Below are positions 14,083 through 42,665 of a DNA stretch of 55,529 bases, piece by piece. The notes beneath the pieces were generated by a model. It was not told the DNA's origin. It made no database searches and saw only the letters and a program-made list of their open reading frames with translations. Position numbers and translations under genes: made by a program. This DNA is from a virus: positions 1 to 55,529 of IMG/VR virus record IMGVR_UViG_3300025030_000131. One strand, 5' to 3'. Each line of letters opens with the position of its first letter. Position 1 is the stretch's first letter.

Positions 14083-14430
14083 CTGCTTACTGGTGAAAGT
14101 CCAGTTCTGGTAAGGGTCAGGCCGCCAGATAGCAGGCAACCGATGCAGTCGGGCGACTGATTGTGTCGAAGCGTTGTAACTCCCAGAGAAAGGGAAGCAA
14201 AACAATAGCCCGTAACATAAAGTGAAACTTGCAGCACCGACATGTTAGCCCCGAAAGGGGAAAAAGAGAGAGCCGAGCCTGTCACGCATGGCGAAGGCAA
14301 TAGAAGCGGTCAAGAACCTGTAAATCAGCCGTGAAGAACTCTCCGGTGTAGAGAGTATGGGATGTTGCGACAGCAGACGATGGACGGCATATAACCGTTC
14401 TAACAGAAGGTATAAACCGAAAGGAGTAAA
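14083..14430 (+). ncRNA. Candidate large structured RNA, class unknown
   Basis: About 350 bases without a plausible gene but with many local hairpins on the plus strand: CTGG/CCAG near its start, CAGTC-GGGC-GACTG, AAGT-GAA-ACTT, CCCC-GAAA-GGGG (GNRA loop), ACTCTC/GAGAGT, ACGG/CCGT and TTCT/AGAA. The density of short perfect stems with GAAA-type loops is typical of ribozymes and HEARO/omega-RNA-like or group II-like RNAs. I find no domain V signature of group II introns and no IscB/IsrB or reverse transcriptase behind it; the next gene (14434) follows within a few bases. Confidence 0.55.
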
Positions 14431-14433
14431 GGG

Positions 14434-15762
14434 ATGAAACAAATAACATCGTTGTCAACCGAGCGAGTTGCGAGGTTCCGGGAGTTTGTAGATAAGTGGA
14501 CACACCTCGGATTGTCCACCAAGCCGGCTAACCACCCAGGGGCTGAGGACGCTCTGCGAAGGGCGTATCAAGTGGCCGGCCTGACACCTCCAAAATTTAT
14601 TGTGTGGATGAAAAGCCCGCGCGACGCAGTCTTGGCATGGGCTTTGATCTTGTCCTGGATAGTTGACGACCAAGTGAGCGACCAAGTGAGCGCCCAAGTG
14701 ATCGACCAAGTGCGCGCCCAAGTGATCGACCAAGTGCGCGACCAAGTGAGCGACCAAGTGAGCGACCAAGTGCGCGCCCAAGTGAGCGCCCAAGTGAGCG
14801 CCCAAGTGCGCGACCAAGTGCGCGCCCAAGTGCGCGCCCAAGTGATCGACCAAGTGCGCGACCAAGTGAGCGACCAAGTGAGCGACCAAGTGCGCGCCCA
14901 AGTGAGCGACCAAGTGCGCGCCCAAGTGCGCGACCAAGTGATCGACCAAGTGATCGACCAAGTGATCGACCAAGTGATCGACCAAGTGATCGACCAAGTG
15001 AGCGACCAAGTGTTCGCCCAAGTGAGCGACCAAGTGATCGACCAAGTGATCGACCAAGTGATCGACCAAGTGATCGACCAAGTGCGCGCCCAAGTGAGCG
15101 ACTATATCCAACAACGCTGGTGGTGGACCGGCTGGGGCAATCAGGAATGGTGGTTGTCCTGGATCGATTACTTCGGCTCCGCCGTTGGAATATCGGCAGA
15201 AAAAATCCATCCATTACTTGATCTCGCAGAACACGGCCATTGGTATTGGCCGATGCAGGGTATCGCCGTGATGTGTGAAAGACCTTTGGCTATTCGGCGC
15301 GACGGACGCGGAAGATTGCATTGCGACGATGGACCGGCAGTGGAGTACGAAGGCTGGACGATCTATGCCGTGGATGGAATGGGGATCCCTGATTGGATCG
15401 TGGAGTGTAAGGACCAGATCACACCTGAACGCATCAACGCCGAAAAAAACGCGGAAATTCGCAGGATCATGATGCGCTTCTATGGTTGGGATCGCTGGCT
15501 GGAAAACGTCAAGGCGAAACTTATTGACCGGGATCCAGACCCCACCATTGGGGAGTTGTGGTCATTCAAAGACGTGGATGGTGTGACCGTGAAAATACTT
15601 AAGGTTCGTAATGGCACAAGGGAAGTAGACGGATACCGCAGCTTTTCTTTGCGCGTGGACTCGGATTGCGAGACTGCACTCAAGGCAAACAGGTGGACAT
15701 ATCCTTCCTGTCGTCAAATGTCGGAGCAAGATTACCGTATTCTAAATTCTGCAAGATCATAA
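14434..15762 (+). CDS. DUF6745-type protein with long DQV tetrapeptide repeat
   Basis: 442 residues. The N-terminus (ERVARFREFVDKWTHLGLST, GAEDALRRAYQVAGLTPP, SPRDAVLAWALI), the middle (VMCERPLAIRRDGRGRLHCD, DGPAVEYEGW) and the C-terminus (NAEIRRIMMRFYG, then DGYRSFSLRVDS) fit the DUF6745 family. Residues 79-222 are 36 copies of a four-residue unit (D/A)QV(S/R/I/F). Family members often carry such a repeat of varying length at this point. Biochemical role unknown to me. It is followed by the small gene at 15777, a pairing I have seen with this family. Preceded by AAAGGAG about 9 bases before ATG. Confidence 0.75.
   Translation: MKQITSLSTERVARFREFVDKWTHLGLSTKPANHPGAEDALRRAYQVAGLTPPKFIVWMKSPRDAVLAWALILSWIVDDQVSDQVSAQVIDQVRAQVIDQVRDQVSDQVSDQVRAQVSAQVSAQVRDQVRAQVRAQVIDQVRDQVSDQVSDQVRAQVSDQVRAQVRDQVIDQVIDQVIDQVIDQVIDQVSDQVFAQVSDQVIDQVIDQVIDQVIDQVRAQVSDYIQQRWWWTGWGNQEWWLSWIDYFGSAVGISAEKIHPLLDLAEHGHWYWPMQGIAVMCERPLAIRRDGRGRLHCDDGPAVEYEGWTIYAVDGMGIPDWIVECKDQITPERINAEKNAEIRRIMMRFYGWDRWLENVKAKLIDRDPDPTIGELWSFKDVDGVTVKILKVRNGTREVDGYRSFSLRVDSDCETALKANRWTYPSCRQMSEQDYRILNSARS
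14668..15099 (+). repeat. 36 tandem 12-base units within the coding region
   Basis: Units of the form (gac/gcc)CAAGTG(agc/cgc/atc) repeat 36 times without a gap or an off-length unit. Variation is confined to the first and last codon of each unit. Six-unit blocks recur at a 10-unit distance (units 5-10 and 15-20), and runs of identical DQVI units occur (23-27, 31-34), signs of slippage or unequal exchange. Confidence 0.95.
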
Positions 15763-25405: not shown

Positions 25406-25544
25406 AGCCTATCCTCTTTAGTATGGCAACAATGACTGCTTTCAGTTCATCAACCGTCTTGGCAGCATCAACCTGCGCAAGCAGGGACACTGGCGTTGGC
25501 AGCACTTTGTCCGACGGTTTGGTTTTACCGATCTTTTTTGTCAT
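25398..25544 (-). CDS. Small helical hypothetical protein
   Basis: 48 residues from ATG 25544, which shares one base with the stop of the upstream gene (TGATG); its end overlaps the lysin start by 8 bases. Basic head (MTKKIGKTKPSDK) and one amphipathic helix (VDELKAVIVAILKRIG). Confidence 0.55.
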   Translation of the reverse strand: MTKKIGKTKPSDKVLPTPVSLLAQVDAAKTVDELKAVIVAILKRIGYA

Positions 25545-25816
25545 CACATACTCTCCACCAGTGACGGCACGCCGTTAATGTATGAAATGTAATACCGGCC
25601 GCTCTCGCTATAGATAGCCTTCGCCACGTCATTCCCCAGCACCGGGCTTGTGTTTTCGTCCAGATTAAAGACACCGTGGCTGGTTGGCGGGTTGTCGTAT
25701 TTACCGCCTGGTAAAACGTTGAGAAAGCCATCGGTTTCAAATGTGTCTGCGTTCAAACATACACCGACCTGAAAACGCATTAGCCTCCCCGAAGTTTTAT
25801 CGAAAATGACAATCAT
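25544..25816 (-). CDS. Small hypothetical phage protein
   Basis: 90 residues, overlapping the upstream stop by 4 bases (ATGA). Strand-rich (MIVIFDKTSGRLMRFQVGV, YYISYINGVPSLVESM) with LGNDVAKAIYSESG. Often small beta proteins of this kind lie near tail fibres; function unknown. Confidence 0.6.
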   Translation of the reverse strand: MIVIFDKTSGRLMRFQVGVCLNADTFETDGFLNVLPGGKYDNPPTSHGVFNLDENTSPVLGNDVAKAIYSESGRYYISYINGVPSLVESM

Positions 25817-26130
25817 TCTTTGCTCCTATTCTGTGCAGCCAGCCACCCACCGAGCGCCACTGCGCCGCCGCTGAAAGCCAAGCCATATATAATTGCCTGC
25901 GCCGTGATTCCATGTAGAATAACGGCAATACCAACACCAGCCCAAACCGAAACACAGACAACGCACGTCACGCCGAGAGACGCCCATCTTCGGAAAAATG
26001 ATAATTCTTCGGGCGGGGTGTTTTGCTTGGTAATCCAATACCGAAACGGCGCAGAGATCATGTCTTGTCCTATGATTTGCGCCAGACGATAAGTCGCTAA
26101 AATCCCGACCAGTAGTATTACGATGTTCAT
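25813..26130 (-). CDS. DUF1360-like membrane protein
   Basis: 105 residues from ATG 26130, overlapping the stop of the RT remnant as ATGA. LVGILATYRLAQIIGQDMISAPFRYWI is the DUF1360 pattern, followed by a RRWASLGVTCVVCVSVWAGVG helix and a third helix near the end. Small membrane proteins of this family are common in phage lysis and tail regions. The intact ATGA coupling shows that the end of the RT gene is undisturbed. Confidence 0.65.
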   Translation of the reverse strand: MNIVILLVGILATYRLAQIIGQDMISAPFRYWITKQNTPPEELSFFRRWASLGVTCVVCVSVWAGVGIAVILHGITAQAIIYGLAFSGGAVALGGWLAAQNRSKE

Positions 26131-26450
26131 TTCACGCTCCATTTCACATTGTTGAATAAGGATTGGCGAAGGCGCCACGTCTGCGCATAACTTGCGTGTG
26201 CTACCCACGATTTTAGGTGCCTTCTTACTGTCGCCGCATCCTTGCGGCCAATGCGATACAAGTAAGCTAATTGATGCACCATACGTGCGGCTCGGATCAC
26301 ATTGCGACGCGTCAGTCGGCGAACTCCAGGTCGTAACACTCGAAACCCAAGCCAATTGATGCCGGCGCTAACCGGGCTCAATATTGTACGAGTGGGGTTG
26401 AGGGTAAGACCTAATCCATGCAAGAAAATTACTATGGCTTCCCGCCACAG
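26127..26450 (-). pseudogene. Reverse transcriptase of the DGR, C-terminal remnant only
   Basis: From about 26450 the minus strand reads QLALWREAIVIFLHGLGL, LNPTRTILSPVSAGINWLGF, RVLRPGVRRLTRRNVIRAAR and SWVAHASYAQTWRLRQSLF: the end of the palm and the thumb region of a DGR-type reverse transcriptase (about 100 residues). The fingers and palm with the catalytic YxDD box, some 230-270 residues, are absent. In the same frame a stop lies at 26511-26513 inside the template repeat, and only a TTG (26423) could serve as start. Homology begins right where the TR/VR match ends (26456), so one deletion seems to have removed the 3' end of the template region and the RT N-terminus. Confidence 0.8.
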
Positions 26451-26455
26451 TGCAA

Positions 26456-26551
26456 GTTGCTGTTGGCGTTCCGCGGCGAGTTGTTGCCGTTGACCGTCCA
26501 GCCACCCGCGTTAGTCGAGTTGTTCCAGTTGCCGCCGCGGAGGAGGGCGCG
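26456..26551 (-). repeat. DGR template repeat (TR)
   Basis: 96 bases matching the variable repeat 27027-27122 except for 11 substitutions, every one at an adenine of the TR (minus strand, coding sense). The TR contains 23 adenines; the other 73 positions are all conserved. It lies between the Avd-like gene and the RT remnant, the standard DGR position. Confidence 0.95.
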
Positions 26552-26568
26552 TAAGGTCCTGACCCCAG

Positions 26569-26952
26569 TCATACAGCATGCTCCAGGTAATAGTTGTGTG
26601 GAACGCTTTTATCAAGCGTGGCCCTCAACCATCCCCAAAGCAGCCGACCGACTTCGTCTAATAGTCCGGCGGCGTATTCATATTGCCGGAAGGCAATGTA
26701 CTTAAGCTCCATCGCCAGGCGAATAAGCGTTTTTAGTTGTCTCAACTTCACGACCAGGTCAGCCAGTGTGGCGGTTTTGCTTTGTTCTGCGTTGGCTTGT
26801 ATTGCGCCCAACATGATATCTGTCGCCAGTTTCTGTGTTTGCTCACCCAGCACGTAACGTTGAGTTTTGGGGTAGTTGGCAACAATAGGATAGAGCCATT
26901 TACAAAACTGATACAACCGATCATGAATGATGAGATGTTGTTTTTCTGCCAT
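26569..26952 (-). CDS. avd: Avd-like DGR accessory protein
   Basis: 127 residues, all-helical: LIIHDRLYQFCKWLYPIV, TDIMLGAIQANAEQ, LVVKLRQLKTLIRLAMELKY and YEYAAGLLDEVGRLLWGWLR form four helices as in the four-helix-bundle Avd protein, a basic pentamer that binds the reverse transcriptase and template RNA and is needed for mutagenic retrohoming. Length (about 125) is usual. Position between variable protein and template repeat is also usual. Confidence 0.85.
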   Translation of the reverse strand: MAEKQHLIIHDRLYQFCKWLYPIVANYPKTQRYVLGEQTQKLATDIMLGAIQANAEQSKTATLADLVVKLRQLKTLIRLAMELKYIAFRQYEYAAGLLDEVGRLLWGWLRATLDKSVPHNYYLEHAV

Positions 26953-27002
26953 TGTTTAAGTCCAGATTACGGATTGTCAGATTACAGATTTCAGGAGAGA
27001 AA

Positions 27003-28163
27003 CTAGGAGCAGCAGCGGAAACCGATGAGGCTGAAGGCGAGCCGCGGCGAGTTGTTGCCGCTGACCGACCAGCCACCCGCGTAAGTCGAGTTGTTCCAGC
27101 CGCCGCCGCGGAGGAGGGCGCGAGGACCCTGCAAGGCGTCGGCTCCAGTGGTAGCTCCAAACGGTGAATACGACTCGCCACCCTCCGCTTCACCTGTCCA
27201 TGAGCTAGTCGTCCATGCAGACCCAGCCTGGTCTGTATAAACGTCCTGCACAGGTGACCAGGTCGAAACTCTTTCCCAAACATTACCGGTCATATCGTAG
27301 CAACCCAGCGTGGAGACGCAGTTGGCGAGTGTGCCGGTTGGGTTGCTATTGACGTTGGCTGCCGCAGTCCAGCAGGTTGTGTTATTGTTCGCGCCTGCCG
27401 GTGTGCCAAATGCTGCCATGCTCCATTCATCATTCGTGCATAAGCGTTTGCCTGCGTTCATGCAGGCTTTGTATTGCGCGAAATAAGTCAAGCTTACCCA
27501 GGGCGTAGCATTGTAGGCAGATGCCGCCGCATTCCCAGCGTGGATGGCCTTGCCGGTGTTGCCAGAATTAGACGCGATGTATATATCTATCATCCAGTTA
27601 GAGCCTGGATACTGTACCATACCCGGCTTCGGTCCCTTTTCTGGATAATCCACATCGCCATCTTCTCTGGCGCTTGCAACCGAATACCTCGAAATGGCGC
27701 TGCTGCCGTTATTGTGTAACCATCCGATCAATCTGGATGTTGCCACCGAGTATCCGCTTGGATAACTGGCACTCGCTGAAATTTTGACGTTGAACTGACT
27801 GCCCGTTCCCGCGACAGCATAGACATAATAATTCATGCCAGCCGCCTCCGATCCGGTGTCCAAATCTGCAAAGGTCGCATTGAACGCGGCAGTTCTTGCG
27901 TATCCGATCCCATTTATTTCCAATTCCCCCACGCCAACCTGGATCGTGCCTGCGTCGACGTAAGAGAGGAAGCATTTGTATTTTTTGCTCCGCCGATCCC
28001 CCCATACCCAGGCCGCCTGAACCTCGTCATAATACCCATCATGGCCTGTGGCGACGTCATGCACATGCTCGCCGCCAACCAAACCAGTGAGTGCATTGAT
28101 TTGTGCCGTTGCCAGGCGGATTGCCACCGCAGGCCGTCCATATTGAATATCATTCTTTTTCAT
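27003..28163 (-). CDS. DGR variable protein: receptor-binding tip with FGE/C-type-lectin fold
   Basis: 386 residues. The N-terminal 180 residues are a beta-rich attachment part (HVHDVATGHDGYYDEV, YYVYAVAGTGSQF). The C-terminal domain has the formylglycine-generating-enzyme (SUMF1) type of C-type lectin fold used by many DGR targets: NAAASAYNATPWVSLTYFAQ, GKRLCTNDEWSMAA, LGCYDMTGNVWERV, then RALLRGGGWNNSTYAGG and GFRCCS. The variable repeat covers residues from RALLRGG to about 9 residues from the end. Compared with the template, AAC codons have become Gly, Tyr, Ser, Leu, Phe and Leu and one ACG Ser. It probably binds the host receptor. Confidence 0.88.
   Translation of the reverse strand: MKKNDIQYGRPAVAIRLATAQINALTGLVGGEHVHDVATGHDGYYDEVQAAWVWGDRRSKKYKCFLSYVDAGTIQVGVGELEINGIGYARTAAFNATFADLDTGSEAAGMNYYVYAVAGTGSQFNVKISASASYPSGYSVATSRLIGWLHNNGSSAISRYSVASAREDGDVDYPEKGPKPGMVQYPGSNWMIDIYIASNSGNTGKAIHAGNAAASAYNATPWVSLTYFAQYKACMNAGKRLCTNDEWSMAAFGTPAGANNNTTCWTAAANVNSNPTGTLANCVSTLGCYDMTGNVWERVSTWSPVQDVYTDQAGSAWTTSSWTGEAEGGESYSPFGATTGADALQGPRALLRGGGWNNSTYAGGWSVSGNNSPRLAFSLIGFRCCS
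27027..27122 (-). repeat. DGR variable repeat (VR)
   Basis: Last part of the variable-protein gene, 571 bases from the template repeat. Changed codons relative to TR: AAC to GGC, AAC to TAC, ACG to TCG, AAC to AGC, AAC to CTC, AAC to TTC, AAC to CTC. No change at any template C, G or T. Beyond it (27003-27026, coding GFRCCS) no match to the present template side remains. Confidence 0.95.
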
Positions 28164-30058
28164 TACGCAACCCTCCAGAATTCAAACGAAGAATATACTT
28201 CAACGTCTGTGTAATTGCTTACCCTGGCTTTGACAGATACGCCCACCCCATAATCAGCCTGCGCCGTCTGCGCCATATATTGGACTTCTAGAATTTTGGA
28301 TGCTGTCAATGTAAATCTACCGGACAGCGGAATATGCGCCCCAAAGTTCAGATGGCCTGTTACTCCCAACATATCGGGAACCATGACAGAGTCTGTTATG
28401 TTGTACAAACGTAATTGAGTCGCGTTTGTACCGTAGAACGCACATAGGATATGGGCATCATAAACTCCAGCGGCAAGTGTGATCTGATTGGATGCAATAG
28501 AACAAATTCCGCCAACGTCCTGTACCTCAGTATTCACAATTCTGGTTGTCCATGCGTTTGCCACTGCCGAGCCTCCCTCAGTTCCGTTTGCGCGTTCGTC
28601 ATGCAATAAAACATAATCAGGGGATTTGAGAGTAACAGACCCACCACCGTTATTTTGAAGTGTCCCATTGGGGACAATGATCTTCCCAACATTACTTACC
28701 GAGGGAGACCCATCCTCTTCTTCCATCGTCAGGTTGAATGGAGTTGACCCTCCCCCAAAAATTCCACCAGTTGTGACAGTCAACGTATCTGCCCCATCTG
28801 CCACCTGATCCACATTCAAGGTCAGGATGTCACCTTCTACGAAATCAGTAATCAGTGGGGTTGTGACCTTCACCCATCCGTTTACATCATCCCATTCAAT
28901 GACAGGTCGAAAGTCATCGTACACGTCCTGAAATATCGAGGTCATCCCGTTCAGGATAATGTCAAAGATGTTCGATCCATACGGTTCTCCCCACTTCCGC
29001 AGACGAAAATACCAAACATGGATATTGGCCGGCCCGGTGATCAATATCGAAGGGGCGATGTCATCCAGAACCGCAAGGGCACCGTCTTTTACAAAACCAA
29101 AAGCACCTCCGCCGCCACCTTCAATGCGCCAATCTGCCGCGCCCATAGTGGCATCGTATAACTTGTATATGATTGAAGTGCTCTGATCCAGCCATTCATC
29201 TGTGACAAGATAGCCCAAAGTCTCATCATCATTGACAGTGGGCGCGGTAAAATTCAAGAACTTGCGAACATATAGCGGATCGGTGATATCTAAATCAGGC
29301 GAAAAGACTGAAGGCGTATTGAGAATATCACCCCAATCAATAGCAGCCGCCAATCCTCCCTCACCCCCGTACCCCGTAAAGCGCGGATCGAAAATATCGG
29401 GATCGCTTGGATTATTGCCGATCCTGGTCTGACCTGCGTAGGTTTTTACTGAAAATAATAACCTGCGATTGTAGGCCGTTACGGGTATCTCCGCCGGGGT
29501 CAGTAACGGCCTTGAGTCTGCATCGCTACCCGCCTCATAATAGATCGTGCCGTCTGTGCCCACTTCCACATTGACCCATCGGGCATTGCCGGCCGGCACG
29601 TAGGAGGTCAGGTCGAAATCCTGTGTATTGATTACTTTGAATCCGTCCAGATAATACCAATATCCTCCAAGCTGCACGGTCATCCCTCCGGTGGGCGCGG
29701 GCAGGCCGCTCAGAATCTGTTCATTTCTAACCCATGTCGGGTTATCGCTCTCTCCGATGGTATGGTTGTGTTCCGGTATGTCGGGGATGCTTGTGTCGGG
29801 ATATACGTCCCTCGATCCCAAGACCTGCAATAAACTCGACCCAGGCAGATACCCCACCCACACCGGCCACTTGAGTCGGTTTGGGGAGCGTTGATTCCTG
29901 ACCTTCAATACCTGACCTGTGATATGGACGGTCACATATACCCGAAAAGAATCGTATTTGACTTCATCGGTGTGAAGATTTCCGATAAAGGCGGGAATCC
30001 GCGTATCCCGGCGGGCGATCTGAATGTCACCGATTAGATTGCGAGACTGTTTATCCAT
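28163..30058 (-). CDS. Tail fibre / tail-tip structural protein
   Basis: 631 residues from ATG 30058, which shares a base with the previous stop (TAATG). The N-terminal third (RVYVTVHITGQVLKVRNQRS) would attach to the tail; the rest is beta-rich with Gly/Asp/Thr, DYVLLHDERANGTEGGSA and a C-terminal jelly-roll-like part (GVYDAHILCAFYGTNATQLR, FTLTASKILEVQYMAQTAQA) like TNF/C1q-type fibre heads. It lies between the large tail protein and the variable tip protein, so probably links them. Confidence 0.65.
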   Translation of the reverse strand: MDKQSRNLIGDIQIARRDTRIPAFIGNLHTDEVKYDSFRVYVTVHITGQVLKVRNQRSPNRLKWPVWVGYLPGSSLLQVLGSRDVYPDTSIPDIPEHNHTIGESDNPTWVRNEQILSGLPAPTGGMTVQLGGYWYYLDGFKVINTQDFDLTSYVPAGNARWVNVEVGTDGTIYYEAGSDADSRPLLTPAEIPVTAYNRRLLFSVKTYAGQTRIGNNPSDPDIFDPRFTGYGGEGGLAAAIDWGDILNTPSVFSPDLDITDPLYVRKFLNFTAPTVNDDETLGYLVTDEWLDQSTSIIYKLYDATMGAADWRIEGGGGGAFGFVKDGALAVLDDIAPSILITGPANIHVWYFRLRKWGEPYGSNIFDIILNGMTSIFQDVYDDFRPVIEWDDVNGWVKVTTPLITDFVEGDILTLNVDQVADGADTLTVTTGGIFGGGSTPFNLTMEEEDGSPSVSNVGKIIVPNGTLQNNGGGSVTLKSPDYVLLHDERANGTEGGSAVANAWTTRIVNTEVQDVGGICSIASNQITLAAGVYDAHILCAFYGTNATQLRLYNITDSVMVPDMLGVTGHLNFGAHIPLSGRFTLTASKILEVQYMAQTAQADYGVGVSVKARVSNYTDVEVYSSFEFWRVA

Positions 30059-33021
30059 TATTCGATAAACCTGCACAGGTAAATGTCAATCAACGGCGCA
30101 ATATACCCAAGATTGCCGGTCTTTTCAAAATAACTTGCCCCTACGTCGCCGGTGAATCGGATTACTATGCCGCCTCCGAAGATGAAACGATTGTCATCCC
30201 CGCAATTCTCCCATACATCTGATCCGTTGGGAATCACCCCAGATACCGGAACCCACGTTATTCCGGCGTCCTCTGTTTTATAAGCCGTGAAGGTTCCATC
30301 TTGTGATCCTGCCATGGCAATATTGGAAGTTGGGGAAAATGCTATGCCCTGCCGGCTGTCAGGTTGTATGGCCGTAAACGGCGTCTCGATCCCCGCTGCA
30401 AACCTCATGTATCCATTGGTAGGGTTGTTATAGACAATTAGAAAATCATAACCTCTGGCGGAAGTGGCATAGGGCGAATAACCGGATGCCCAAAAACTGC
30501 CTTGCACAGTGTCAGAATAAGCACCTGCCGCATTGAGTCTGATATAGACGGGGTTTGTAAGGCTGCCCTGAATCCCTGCACCGCTCACAGCCGCAATCGA
30601 CCAGCCGCCGCCATTCCAGAAAATTGGCTGTTCCGTACCATGCAACAAGTTTCGTATGTAGATGGGTGAACCCGCAACCGCGCCCTCGCAAAAAGTGATG
30701 TAGATACTTCCGTATTGTCCATCATTAGGCCACGACCACGCGCGACCTCCTGTAATGACAATGCTGTCATCCTGGTTGGGATCAACCCCTATCCCGCGTA
30801 TGCCGGAATTTAGGTACCATCCTTCCACTGGATAAGCAGTCCATGATTGCACTAATTCCCATGTGGCTCCCACGCCAGCCGCGCGATAAACAGACTCGTA
30901 TCCTTGATTGCTGCCTGCCTTTTCCTTTGTCAGTATGTAAATAGCTCCCACTGGTGTGACTTGAATTTGAACAATAGCATCCCTTTCATCTTCTGTAAGA
31001 CCATTATTCATGGTTTTCCAGATAACATCAGCGGCATCCGCGTCAAAATTCTCCGTATATAGGACTCCGAATAAGGGTGCTACAATCACAACTTTTTTGG
31101 GATGATTGAGATTGATTTCGCCGGGAGGCATGGGGGGGGAGATTGGCGGCGGGATTGGAATTGTCGGCGGGGGAGGGAGTTCAAAATCCTCATCAATTCC
31201 ACTATCCGCCGGCACGTCCCCATCGACATTCAACTCTTCCACCGACTCGTCCTCGAACTGCACAATGGTATGGGCATATCCAGAATCGCGATCCCATAAA
31301 TATTCAATGGAACGGGGACAAAGGTATCCGTTGTATGGGACTCCTCTTGGGTTGTCTGCGGCCAGCATGACGATACTGGCGCGGCAATATTGGGCGACAC
31401 TGAACATGCGGTTATTTCCAACAAACTCAACAGGCAAATCATCGAAGAGCCTGTTGTCCCATCCAACCAAAAGACCAGCCAGGGCATTGCCCTGACTCTG
31501 ACTTGATAATAATAACTTCTCCATTGAGTCGGGATCGCCATAAGGGAATGGGATATGACCCGGTGACAGGGAAAAATAGGCAAAACCAGACCCATATTGA
31601 TCCACCTTTATCCCAGAGGAAAGCATTTGTGCCCTTTCCTCATACAGGTGCAATTCAACGCCTATCATATCCTGCCAGTCATCCGAGGTAATGGCCTGCA
31701 CCACAGGCCAGGCCGTTCTATCGGCCTCCGGCACAAGCTGCGGCTCGACTCTCAGATAGGCATACCCCAACCGATCAAATACCAGACTGGCAATGATGCT
31801 CGTAAATGCCATTTCCTCGATTTGCGCCCACAGATTCGTATTGATGCTTGCCATTTCAAGTGCCAGCCTTGTGTCGTTGCTTGGGTAGAAATCACAGAAC
31901 CTCAAAACGGTGGAACGGTAACGGAGCAGGTGGAATATGGCGCGGTCTATATTCAGGTCGGGCATATCCGTCCACAGACTCGGAGTGTTGATCGCCCTTT
32001 CCAACCCGGTGGGGAAGGTGGTTATTTTAGCGAGCCAGTATTTCCAGCCCTGTATGGTGATCTCCACGTTGCCAGTTTCCTCGTTGAAAGACATGGCATC
32101 GTCTGAAATCCTGCCAACCGATACGACATTTTCCTCCCCTTCGCAGTACCCGATGGACTCCACCTGGGAGTCGTAATAATCCTTTGCAAATAGGATCGTA
32201 AAGGCGCGGGCAACCATATTGGTCAGGTCGGCGTTCTCCGTCATCTGCACTTCAAAATATACGTCCTTGCCCTCATTGACTCTCACGGTATGGAGGTAGG
32301 TATTGATCTCGTTGATGTCTTTGACAAAGACATAGCGCATGCCGCGATAGGTCTTTCCTTCGCTGGTCGTCGCTGTGCAATAGATGACATAATTTCCCTC
32401 GGCATCCCATTCAAAAGTAGGGGTAGCCGTGTTGGGATTGGTGATATTTGAGGATCCGGGGGCTGTCCATGCGTAGGATGCTATGGTTGCGCCGAAAACC
32501 CATGAGTTCGAGGCGTCCCGCTCCAAAGTTACCGGATTCCCCGAAAACGGGATGACCACATGCCCGCCCATGTTGACCACCGGCTCGAATTCCTCATGCT
32601 GGTCGGTATATGCCTCCTCGTAATCTATCAGGAATTCACCGTCCACGATCTTGATATGTTTTGGGAGAATGTCGTAATCGTCCGCAATAGTCAGGTAACA
32701 ATCGGCCTGCCAGTCGATATGAGACAACTCGCCAATGTAGAATATGCTGGAGGTGGGGGCTTTCCTGATCCTGCAAATGCCCAGGTCGCTTGCCCCGGCG
32801 GTTGTGCCAACCAGCATAGTCATATCCACCAGGACATCGGCTAATGTGCCGACTCCGGTATTGTAATCAATAGAACCCACCATGTCGGTTGAAGTGGGGA
32901 CTCCATTCAGGCGCGCGGTATAGATCACGTTTGGCACGCGGGGGATCACAAACATTTCCGAGTATTGATTCTTGCCTCGTTGTTTGGTTAGTTCCGGGGA
33001 GGTGATGGCTCTAACAGACAT
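30058..33021 (-). CDS. Large tail protein with PKD-like domain and propeller-like C-terminus
   Basis: 987 residues. N-terminal 140: baseplate-like start. About 150-235: PKD-type immunoglobulin fold (NSWVFGATIASYAWTAPGSS, TFEWDAEGNYVIYCTATTSE). Middle: mixed alpha/beta. About residue 615 a proline-rich hinge (ELPPPPTIPIPPPISPPMPP). C-terminal 340: repeats of the sialidase/BNR type (TEDAGITWVPVSGV, GSQDGTFTAYK) suggesting a beta-propeller, likely for host-surface binding. Follows the tape measure and a small tail gene, the position of tail-tip proteins in siphoviruses. Confidence 0.7.
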   Translation of the reverse strand: MSVRAITSPELTKQRGKNQYSEMFVIPRVPNVIYTARLNGVPTSTDMVGSIDYNTGVGTLADVLVDMTMLVGTTAGASDLGICRIRKAPTSSIFYIGELSHIDWQADCYLTIADDYDILPKHIKIVDGEFLIDYEEAYTDQHEEFEPVVNMGGHVVIPFSGNPVTLERDASNSWVFGATIASYAWTAPGSSNITNPNTATPTFEWDAEGNYVIYCTATTSEGKTYRGMRYVFVKDINEINTYLHTVRVNEGKDVYFEVQMTENADLTNMVARAFTILFAKDYYDSQVESIGYCEGEENVVSVGRISDDAMSFNEETGNVEITIQGWKYWLAKITTFPTGLERAINTPSLWTDMPDLNIDRAIFHLLRYRSTVLRFCDFYPSNDTRLALEMASINTNLWAQIEEMAFTSIIASLVFDRLGYAYLRVEPQLVPEADRTAWPVVQAITSDDWQDMIGVELHLYEERAQMLSSGIKVDQYGSGFAYFSLSPGHIPFPYGDPDSMEKLLLSSQSQGNALAGLLVGWDNRLFDDLPVEFVGNNRMFSVAQYCRASIVMLAADNPRGVPYNGYLCPRSIEYLWDRDSGYAHTIVQFEDESVEELNVDGDVPADSGIDEDFELPPPPTIPIPPPISPPMPPGEINLNHPKKVVIVAPLFGVLYTENFDADAADVIWKTMNNGLTEDERDAIVQIQVTPVGAIYILTKEKAGSNQGYESVYRAAGVGATWELVQSWTAYPVEGWYLNSGIRGIGVDPNQDDSIVITGGRAWSWPNDGQYGSIYITFCEGAVAGSPIYIRNLLHGTEQPIFWNGGGWSIAAVSGAGIQGSLTNPVYIRLNAAGAYSDTVQGSFWASGYSPYATSARGYDFLIVYNNPTNGYMRFAAGIETPFTAIQPDSRQGIAFSPTSNIAMAGSQDGTFTAYKTEDAGITWVPVSGVIPNGSDVWENCGDDNRFIFGGGIVIRFTGDVGASYFEKTGNLGYIAPLIDIYLCRFIE

Positions 33022-40454: not shown

Positions 40455-41006
40455 TTAGTTCACCTTTCCTTGTTCCTGAGCCGCATAGTTCAGGAGTAGA
40501 GAGGGAGTCGCCAAAATATCCTCGTCCCCGGCTTCCCCGCCGTTCGTGGCGGAATTAACGAACCCGCCGAGTGCGGCATAGTTGGTGGGACGATAGGACG
40601 TGTCGAGTTTCTCCAACACACCCAGGGTCATCCCGTTCAATACGGCCTCATCGAAGGGGCAGGCTTTATTGACGATCAGCCGCGCGACAACTTCCTTCTT
40701 TTTGGCTTCGGCTTCGGCGGCGGCGTTTTGCGCCATTGTGGTAGCCGCTTGCACACCCTCCTGAATGGTTTTGATGCCATTCGCAAGGGCCTGAATACTG
40801 GCAGGAACATCGGTGAGCGATTTGAGCAGAGCCGCAAACTTATCCACTCCGCCAGCCTCATTCACTACTGACTCAAGCCCGGTCAGTGTGGGGGAGAGGG
40901 CAGGGGCGGCGGGAGTTACGGAAGCGGTCTTGCCTTTGTCGTCAAACGACACATTCCATCCTGTGTTATTCAGGATTGTTTGGATCAGCTTCTTGATCTC
41001 ATCCAT
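40455..41006 (-). CDS. Nested scaffold protein (internal start in the protease gene)
   Basis: An in-frame ATG at 41006 (residue 554, MDEIKKLIQTILNNTG) is preceded on the minus strand by AAGGAG at 9 bases, stronger than the site of the full-length gene. Translation from here would give a 183-residue protein consisting of the scaffold part only, as in the lambda C/Nu3 arrangement. Expression from this start is inferred. Confidence 0.5.
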   Translation of the reverse strand: MDEIKKLIQTILNNTGWNVSFDDKGKTASVTPAAPALSPTLTGLESVVNEAGGVDKFAALLKSLTDVPASIQALANGIKTIQEGVQAATTMAQNAAAEAEAKKKEVVARLIVNKACPFDEAVLNGMTLGVLEKLDTSYRPTNYAALGGFVNSATNGGEAGDEDILATPSLLLNYAAQEQGKVN

Positions 41007-42665
41007 CTGGTTTTTCTCCTTGTTGAAATTTGGAAACAAATTAACAAGCCAGTTCGTAGGCTGACTTGGGGCTTGTGAATTGACATACCCTCCCCCGCTT
41101 TTATAGAACGGGACCTTCAGGAATACCTTGTCCCCATTGACCAGGGTTATATCGGTGATCTCCATGTCGAAAGGCTCGAAGGTATCCGCCGGGATCTCGT
41201 CGTCCTTGCCGATGTAGGCAATGGTGATGTGAGGGATAAAGCCGTGATCCGATGGGGTTTTGACCCCCTTCCAATCCAGATTACTTGAAAGCGTTTTGTA
41301 CAGTAGGGGAAGTCCGGGGCTGTCAAAGGTGAGGACAAAGGCATCCTGTTCCCCGCCGGAAATAAAGCGGGCTAATCCCTGCACCTGTCCCGCAACCTTT
41401 GGCTGATATTCGGCCGTTTCAAACATGGATTTCAATACCTGAATGGCATCCATGTCAGAGGTCTCACCCAAAAAGGCCAGCGTCATGTGAAGGTTGTCAT
41501 AGACTTCATCGGACATGAAGGGGAATTGAGCCTTGATCTTTTCCTTGATCGTATCGGGTAGCATGAAGGCGATCATGCTATTGGATGAATAGTCGGGATC
41601 GTCGGCGGCGTTCTCGAAAATGGCGTAGTTTTTCTTGACCCATCCCTCGCCTTTTTTCATGTAGCCGGCCCGCTTGCAAGCGCCCCAGGCTTTTTTAGCG
41701 GCAGTTTCCTCGTCATCACCGTCGGCCTTTGCCTTTTTATGGACTTCCTCCCACATCTTCTTCATTTTTTCAGGCATGTTTTCATTCATCATATTTTGAA
41801 TGTCCGCATACACATCTGCGCGATTCATCATTAAAATTTTCTTCGCTAAATCTTCAATCCTGCTTTCAATCATTTTCTTTTCGCCGGGCTTCAATTTTCC
41901 CGCCTTAAGTCTTTCTTCCAACAAATCCAACATGGCCCTTTCTTTTGTTCCTGCGCCACGCCGCTTATCCACCGCCGAATCACCTCCTCCCTCCGATGTG
42001 CTTCCGCCGACCTCACCTTTACGGCCTTTGTGCCACGGATGTGTTGTCGCATTTTCCAGTGACAGCAAATTATAAAAAAGCATACTGTTATTCATACAGT
42101 CCTCACAATTGTTGATGGCGGCTGAATTGCGATTGATCCCGCAGCCGTCCTTGATCGAGCAGGCTCCGGCTTCGTCCGGCAGCACCGCGATATGATCCGG
42201 GTGGATTTCACGCTGGACTCCGATGTAGGGCAGGCCGTTGTGTTTGCCTGGGATTTGATCTATATTGGCGTAATAGCCTGTGGAGGTTTCGATGATCTTA
42301 CCCTCTAGAATATCATCGTGGATTTGTTTGCCTTCCTCGGATGAAAGCAGGATCGCCTTGTCGAGCCAGTACTCTCCTGTTAGGCGGCGGTTGGCCGAGT
42401 CCAGCGATGCGCCAAAGAACCTGCCGAGTATGGGAACATCAGGGACTGGGACTCTGGCTGATCCGTTGTTTTGTTTGGGGTGGCGTAGGACGATAGGGAC
42501 TCCATCCCAGTCTTTTACAAAGGCCCCGAATTCATCCATTGGGACAAAGAACTTGTTTAGGACTCCCTCTACAATGGTCACACCCTTGACAACAAGATAC
42601 TCCTTGCCATCGAAGGTTTCAATTCTATGGGGGGTAAAGGGACTGAGGTTTGCGAAAGTGTGCAT
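40455..42665 (-). CDS. Fusion: DUF2213-type prohead protease, ChaB-like, 2H phosphoesterase, scaffold
   Basis: 736 residues, four parts. 1-180: DUF2213-like prohead protease (GVPIVLRHPKQNNGSARV, VPILGRFFGASLD, PYIGVQREIHPDHIAVLPDE). 285-345: ChaB-like helical segment (MPEKMKKMWEEVHKKAK, AWGACKRAGYMKKGEGW). 360-520: 2H phosphoesterase with both HxT motifs, HMT 393-395 and HIT 479-481, in the usual hLHhTLAFLG and PHITIAYIG settings. 540-736: scaffold-like helices rich in Ala, Glu and Lys. Protease and scaffold act in procapsid assembly; the 2H part might cleave cyclic or 2'-5' linked nucleotides. No ribosome-binding site precedes ATG 42665. Confidence 0.85.
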   Translation of the reverse strand: MHTFANLSPFTPHRIETFDGKEYLVVKGVTIVEGVLNKFFVPMDEFGAFVKDWDGVPIVLRHPKQNNGSARVPVPDVPILGRFFGASLDSANRRLTGEYWLDKAILLSSEEGKQIHDDILEGKIIETSTGYYANIDQIPGKHNGLPYIGVQREIHPDHIAVLPDEAGACSIKDGCGINRNSAAINNCEDCMNNSMLFYNLLSLENATTHPWHKGRKGEVGGSTSEGGGDSAVDKRRGAGTKERAMLDLLEERLKAGKLKPGEKKMIESRIEDLAKKILMMNRADVYADIQNMMNENMPEKMKKMWEEVHKKAKADGDDEETAAKKAWGACKRAGYMKKGEGWVKKNYAIFENAADDPDYSSNSMIAFMLPDTIKEKIKAQFPFMSDEVYDNLHMTLAFLGETSDMDAIQVLKSMFETAEYQPKVAGQVQGLARFISGGEQDAFVLTFDSPGLPLLYKTLSSNLDWKGVKTPSDHGFIPHITIAYIGKDDEIPADTFEPFDMEITDITLVNGDKVFLKVPFYKSGGGYVNSQAPSQPTNWLVNLFPNFNKEKNQMDEIKKLIQTILNNTGWNVSFDDKGKTASVTPAAPALSPTLTGLESVVNEAGGVDKFAALLKSLTDVPASIQALANGIKTIQEGVQAATTMAQNAAAEAEAKKKEVVARLIVNKACPFDEAVLNGMTLGVLEKLDTSYRPTNYAALGGFVNSATNGGEAGDEDILATPSLLLNYAAQEQGKVN

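Follow-up and report, generated by a model that had tools for sequence, protein, structure and literature searches.

The stretch of DNA analysed here in full (the window, 55,529 nucleotides; a linear virus contig constituting the 55.5-kb record IMGVR_UViG_3300025030_000131, possibly incomplete) carries a phage diversity-generating retroelement (DGR), which in its working state scrambles the tip of an attachment-type protein; one deletion of ~0.9 kb has very likely disabled it, a loss that is probably recent and that would leave the variable protein stuck on its last version. Since the record has tail-fibre, head, portal and terminase matches, the window can be assigned to a tailed phage; the tail-fibre family is matched by the gene preceding the DGR target (28163-30076).

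Organization of the cassette

The gene order of the cassette, on the minus strand, is target – avd – TR – RT (reverse transcriptase) remnant – DUF1360-like gene – small gene. The variable (target) protein of 386 aa is encoded by an intact ORF (27003-28163, minus strand). Its C-terminus is of the FGE-sulfatase/C-type-lectin type (Pfam FGE-sulfatase, 1.2e-10) and comes after an Mtd-like second domain (Pfam mtd_2nd, 5.5e-12), with the variable repeat (VR) at the C-terminal end; a phmmer search of the PDB with this protein gave no match. The accessory gene avd (26569-26952, minus strand; 127 aa) is likewise intact (Pfam bAvd, 2.9e-23). Downstream of the RT remnant lies the DUF1360-like gene (25813-26130, minus strand; Pfam DUF1360, 1.3e-5), for which homologous ORFs can be recognized by eye downstream of the RT in the relatives L001 and L005. 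It is followed by a small gene of 90 aa (25544-25816, minus strand) that has no Pfam match and to which the ORFs at L001 7088-7510 and L005 6142-6414 are similar, again by eye. The start of the DUF1360-like gene overlaps the RT stop codon (ATGA) in both the window and L001; the downstream coupling is intact, as the original prediction had it.

The surviving template repeat (TR; 26456-26551, minus strand) is truncated at its 3' end, with 96 nt left of a repeat that measures 124 nt in L001. The part of the VR that matches it (27027-27122, minus strand) was also found by a mechanical repeat search. TR and VR differ at 11 of 96 positions, and every one of these mismatches falls on a TR adenine (23 A and 73 non-A positions; hypergeometric P = 1.5e-8), so that there are 0 differences at the 73 non-A sites. 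The last TR positions read AAC against CTC in the VR, which places the TR end at 26456, 3 bases beyond the mechanically found repeat; because the TR and VR sides are only 32.5% identical over the 80 nt past that base, it can be taken as the true end. A search of the window for a second target of the TR produced only short chance matches. Among the features by which a functional DGR is recognized, the window has an A-directed TR/VR pair, a VR at the 3' end of the target gene and Avd. It has neither an RT with YxDD and SQ motifs (only residues ~230-342 are left) nor a complete TR 3' end (IMH*) with a structured TR-RT spacer, the RT tail coming directly after the TR.

The stretch from the target stop to avd (26951-27005, minus strand) is almost identical to L001:4946-5000, the target genes themselves being far more divergent, and it holds repeated ATCTGTAATCTG-like words; it may hold the VR-side recognition element. 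Elsewhere in the window, a 736-aa ORF (40455-42665, minus strand) with RNA-ligase family matches adjoins a major-head-protein-like gene.

The RT remnant and the probable deletion junction

The original prediction held that only the last ~100 residues of the RT survive, and indeed what we find is a C-terminal remnant of ~109 aa (26127-26455, minus strand) without a Pfam domain match. It matches residues 230-342 of the 343-residue L001 RT with 73% identity (E = 9e-53) and no internal stop. In the L001 enzyme, SQ (GNLTSQ) starts at residue 190 and YMDD at residue 221; since both are upstream of what remains, the remnant has no catalytic motif and cannot be a polymerase. There is no other RT in the 55.5-kb record: a full-length L001 RT query matches only the remnant, a six-sequence RT profile (the window tail itself included) matches the same single place, and RVT_1 gives no match to the record. 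The best solved-structure match of the RT profile is 8ub7, an entry listed only as 'Reverse transcriptase', which we take to be the RT of Bordetella phage BPP-1.

With the TR ending at 26456 and the remnant starting at 26455, the RT homology begins where the TR/VR match stops, just as had been predicted. This junction between TR and RT tail (26455-26456) is uncertain by a few bases. The missing stretch, measured between the corresponding points, is 893 nt in L001 and in L005 alike; the single deletion originally proposed thus holds up, its estimated size of ~0.8 kb being slightly low. Lost are the TR 3' end, the entire TR-RT spacer and ~234 of the 343 RT residues, including SQ and YMDD, which agrees with the earlier claim that the 3' template region and the catalytic domain have both gone. 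All of this is what would be expected if one deletion of ~0.9 kb had begun close to the TR 3' end and extended as far as RT codon ~235. Such an event would have taken away the region corresponding to the IMH*, the spacer and, from the N-terminus on, two thirds of the RT; variable protein and avd are intact, as is the operon downstream.

The longest word shared by the two break regions is 5 nt in both L001 and L005, and random pairs of 40-mers have a mean of 5.0, with 68% of them sharing a word of at least 5 nt. Because such a word is quite ordinary, no mechanism can be claimed for the deletion. A search of other IMG/VR contigs, which may omit near relatives, did not turn up the exact junction, and one sequence carries the allele.

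Intact relatives

A complete RT is present at the same operon position in two distinct relatives, L005 and the pair L001/L002, whose members show no difference in the 7,000 bases compared. Both have the gene order of the window (target – avd – TR – RT – DUF1360 gene – small gene), but they differ from it in having a complete RT (343 aa in L001, 346 aa in L005) and a full-length TR. It is the comparison with these complete-RT relatives, already envisaged in the original prediction, that brings the missing 893-nt segment to light. The window Avd has 97% amino acid identity to that of L001 (dN 0.017, dS 1.13) and 72% to that of L005. The folding z-scores of the L001 and L005 spacers are unremarkable (-0.70 and -1.72, respectively).

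None of our searches produced a close relative of the window: the best DGR-cassette relative has 75-78% DNA identity and the best match to the variable protein 71%. A megablast comparison of window positions 20000-42000 with phage records gave nothing, and tblastn of the RT tail against phage records gave 9 weak RT matches (28-39% identity). In one scan of genome contigs with the L001 RT, a single relative was found, in Castellaniella (40% identity). In IMG/VR, exact-peptide patterns derived from the RT tail alone proved too strict and yielded no relatives, whereas relatives were obtained there with the Avd and L001 RT queries.

Age of the loss

To judge from these sequences, the RT was probably lost recently, because there is no non-A difference between TR and VR and because the RT tail is no more diverged than its intact counterpart. 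The window tail is 52% identical to that of L005 over 92 aa, and the figure for the intact L001 against L005 is 49% over 106 aa (the lengths compared differ). The dS between the window and L001 is ~1.1 in both avd and the RT tail. On the assumption that the TR evolves at the synonymous rate, the freeze would fall in the most recent 4-6% or so of the period elapsed since the L001 split, a rough 95% bound based on zero events. Relaxed selection on the RT tail was considered separately and rejected, since there is no acceleration relative to the intact L001 counterpart.

Expected consequences of the deletion and alternative explanations

The spacer that follows the TR in the BPP-1 DGR folds up and recruits RT-Avd, and it is from this spacer that cDNA synthesis is primed, at the junction with the TR 3' end; when RT, Avd or TR is inactivated, reporter repair drops to about 1e-9 (available portion of PMC12875486). 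With RT, spacer and TR 3' end all absent, cDNA would not be expected from the window cassette even if an RT were supplied, and we infer that it yields no mutagenic cDNA. The variable protein would then keep its last pre-deletion version and change only by ordinary mutation or recombination. The idea of a 'frozen' DGR put forward in the original prediction is supported in that there is no catalytic motif, TR 3' end or spacer, the freezing itself being a deduction from these losses. Its suggestion that an RT in trans might serve the remaining Avd and TR is weakened, given that the very elements that prime cDNA in BPP-1, the TR 3' end and the spacer, are missing.

There is, of course, the question of whether the phage itself lacks these sequences, or whether the contig merely skips 0.9 kb that is present in it, through an error of assembly or a mixture of strains. 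DGR loci are hard to assemble, owing to their TR/VR repeats and the variation in the VR, and the window is a single witness, a virus record from an environmental collection. However, an assembly error at the repeats would most likely fuse TR and VR, with loss of avd, whereas here it is the RT to which the TR is joined. Moreover, no word longer than 5 nt is shared at the L001 or L005 break regions, which is no more than the random mean, and the next gene is preserved together with its ATGA overlap. We consequently do not favour such an artefact and consider it quite unlikely. One could also imagine that the RT has been split and not lost, its N-terminal part residing elsewhere in the genome, to be joined by rearrangement or trans-splicing. 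The group II intron domain match at 14087-14220 and the possible incompleteness of the record would allow for this, but within the record a full-length RT query matches nothing apart from the tail, and no intron maturase domain was found there, so that we give this explanation almost no credence.

The remaining alternative accepts the deletion and questions only its effect: the VR could still be diversified by RT, Avd and a template coming from the host or from a co-infecting element, with the window cassette acting purely as a recipient. The VR with its 3' region, the variable protein and avd are all intact. In BPP-1, a donor plasmid with avd, TR and brt can act on a VR situated elsewhere (available portion of PMC3240598), and there is a precedent in which, a second RT having been lost, a single RT serves a distant set of targets (available portion of PMC3521204). 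Against this, no helper is seen in the record, and one would not expect the local TR to be copied now that its 3' end and spacer are gone. Any helper would thus have to bring along a matching TR of its own, and compared with the window TR those of L001 and L005 show differences at 12/96 and 16/96 positions, respectively. Rescue of this sort seems to us very improbable, and inactivation of the cassette by the deletion is the reading that we retain below.

The intron match mentioned above (14087-14220, plus strand) is to Rfam RF02003, group II intron D1-D4, with 78 bits against a cut-off of 49 bits, and no RT or maturase domain to accompany it was found in the record. The ORF next to it (14434-15762) is a DUF6745 gene with viral relatives in L112 and L113; the 2 kb upstream of the L112 relative contain no RNA of the RF02003 type.

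Comparison with known DGRs

Broken DGRs are already known, from the DiGReF work of 2012 (which we take to be that of Schillinger et al.), and the window is a clean further example with a different lesion, in which the template is also broken. DiGReF describes DGRs in which a nonsense mutation, a frameshift or the insertion of a transposon has put the RT out of action, and the TR/VR differences of A-type only in inactivated DGRs were taken there as a sign of very recent inactivation (available portion of PMC3521204). The window has both of the marks by which inactivated DGRs were recognized in that work, a disrupted RT beside a TR/VR pair and A-type-only differences. It resembles those cases (PMC3521204, same portion) in that TR and VR are still there although the RT has been destroyed, but is unlike them in that a deletion removes most of the RT plus the TR 3' end and spacer. 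Inactivation of a DGR by deletion was not found in the available portions of PMC3521204, PMC12875486, PMC3240598, PMC8144416, PMC6199706, PMC12629997 and PMC11792537, and may still be in print. The BPP-1 DGR, for its part, has in common with the window the order target – avd – TR – RT, A-directed TR/VR differences and a target domain of the Mtd type. However, the BPP-1 cassette is complete and active (available portions of PMC3240598 and PMC12875486), whereas that of the window is without spacer, TR 3' end and catalytic RT.

The window can be viewed as a natural DGR knockout that offers a clean comparison with its intact sisters. It indicates that the loss of a DGR is not confined to point mutation or insertion, and that it can remove the template along with the enzyme. 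Such cases bear on the question of when targeted hypermutation ceases to be worth keeping. They also imply that an annotated avd or TR/VR pair is, by itself, no proof of an active DGR.

Survey of avd loci

For a more general view we searched with an Avd profile built from six sequences and considered the best 80 of 431 confirmed loci, a set that was not dereplicated (L001 and L002 are counted separately). The 11 of these 80 loci with <1.5 kb of sequence after avd were set aside. Among the remaining 69, all drawn from the best 80 of 431, the RT following avd is near-complete (at least 290 of 341 profile positions covered) in 65, partial in 1 (L103) and absent in 3 (L032, L078 and L091). Searches of the whole contigs of these last three (10.2, 16.2 and 50.7 kb, respectively, and possibly incomplete) found no RT either. 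Weak tblastn RT matches were rejected in L032 (E 0.005 over 40 aa), L091 (E 0.009 over 34 aa) and L078 (E 0.099 over 22 aa).

L078, L032 and L091 are like the window in having kept avd and being RT-less, but unlike it they have no recognizable RT tail. L078 (212-1900) retains an FGE-type target and avd, and its TR is cut off after ~20 nt; L032 and L091 can be aligned with intact relatives right through the TR and into the spacer. L091 (3716-6563) possesses target, VR, avd and a full-length TR, with 14 of 15 TR/VR differences at A; the place of the RT is taken by an HNH/AP2-type ORF. The alignments suggest that the break points differ among the three. Loss of the RT with sparing of avd is uncommon and probably repeated, and, taking the window together with this survey of the best 80 of 431 loci, a few percent of the phage cassettes that carry avd could be locked. 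It is tempting to go further and to regard RT loss that spares both avd and target as a repeated outcome in phages, one that locks in a successful receptor binder, perhaps still rewritable by a helper, with the window, L032, L078 and L091 as independent instances having different break points; taken as a whole, this generalization strikes us as doubtful and rather unlikely.

Finally, three loci in the survey (L058:6702-6950, L061:6453-6671 and L065:6702-6920) have a short second ORF after a complete RT. This ORF corresponds to the final ~50 positions of the RT profile and gives the impression of a duplicated RT tail.
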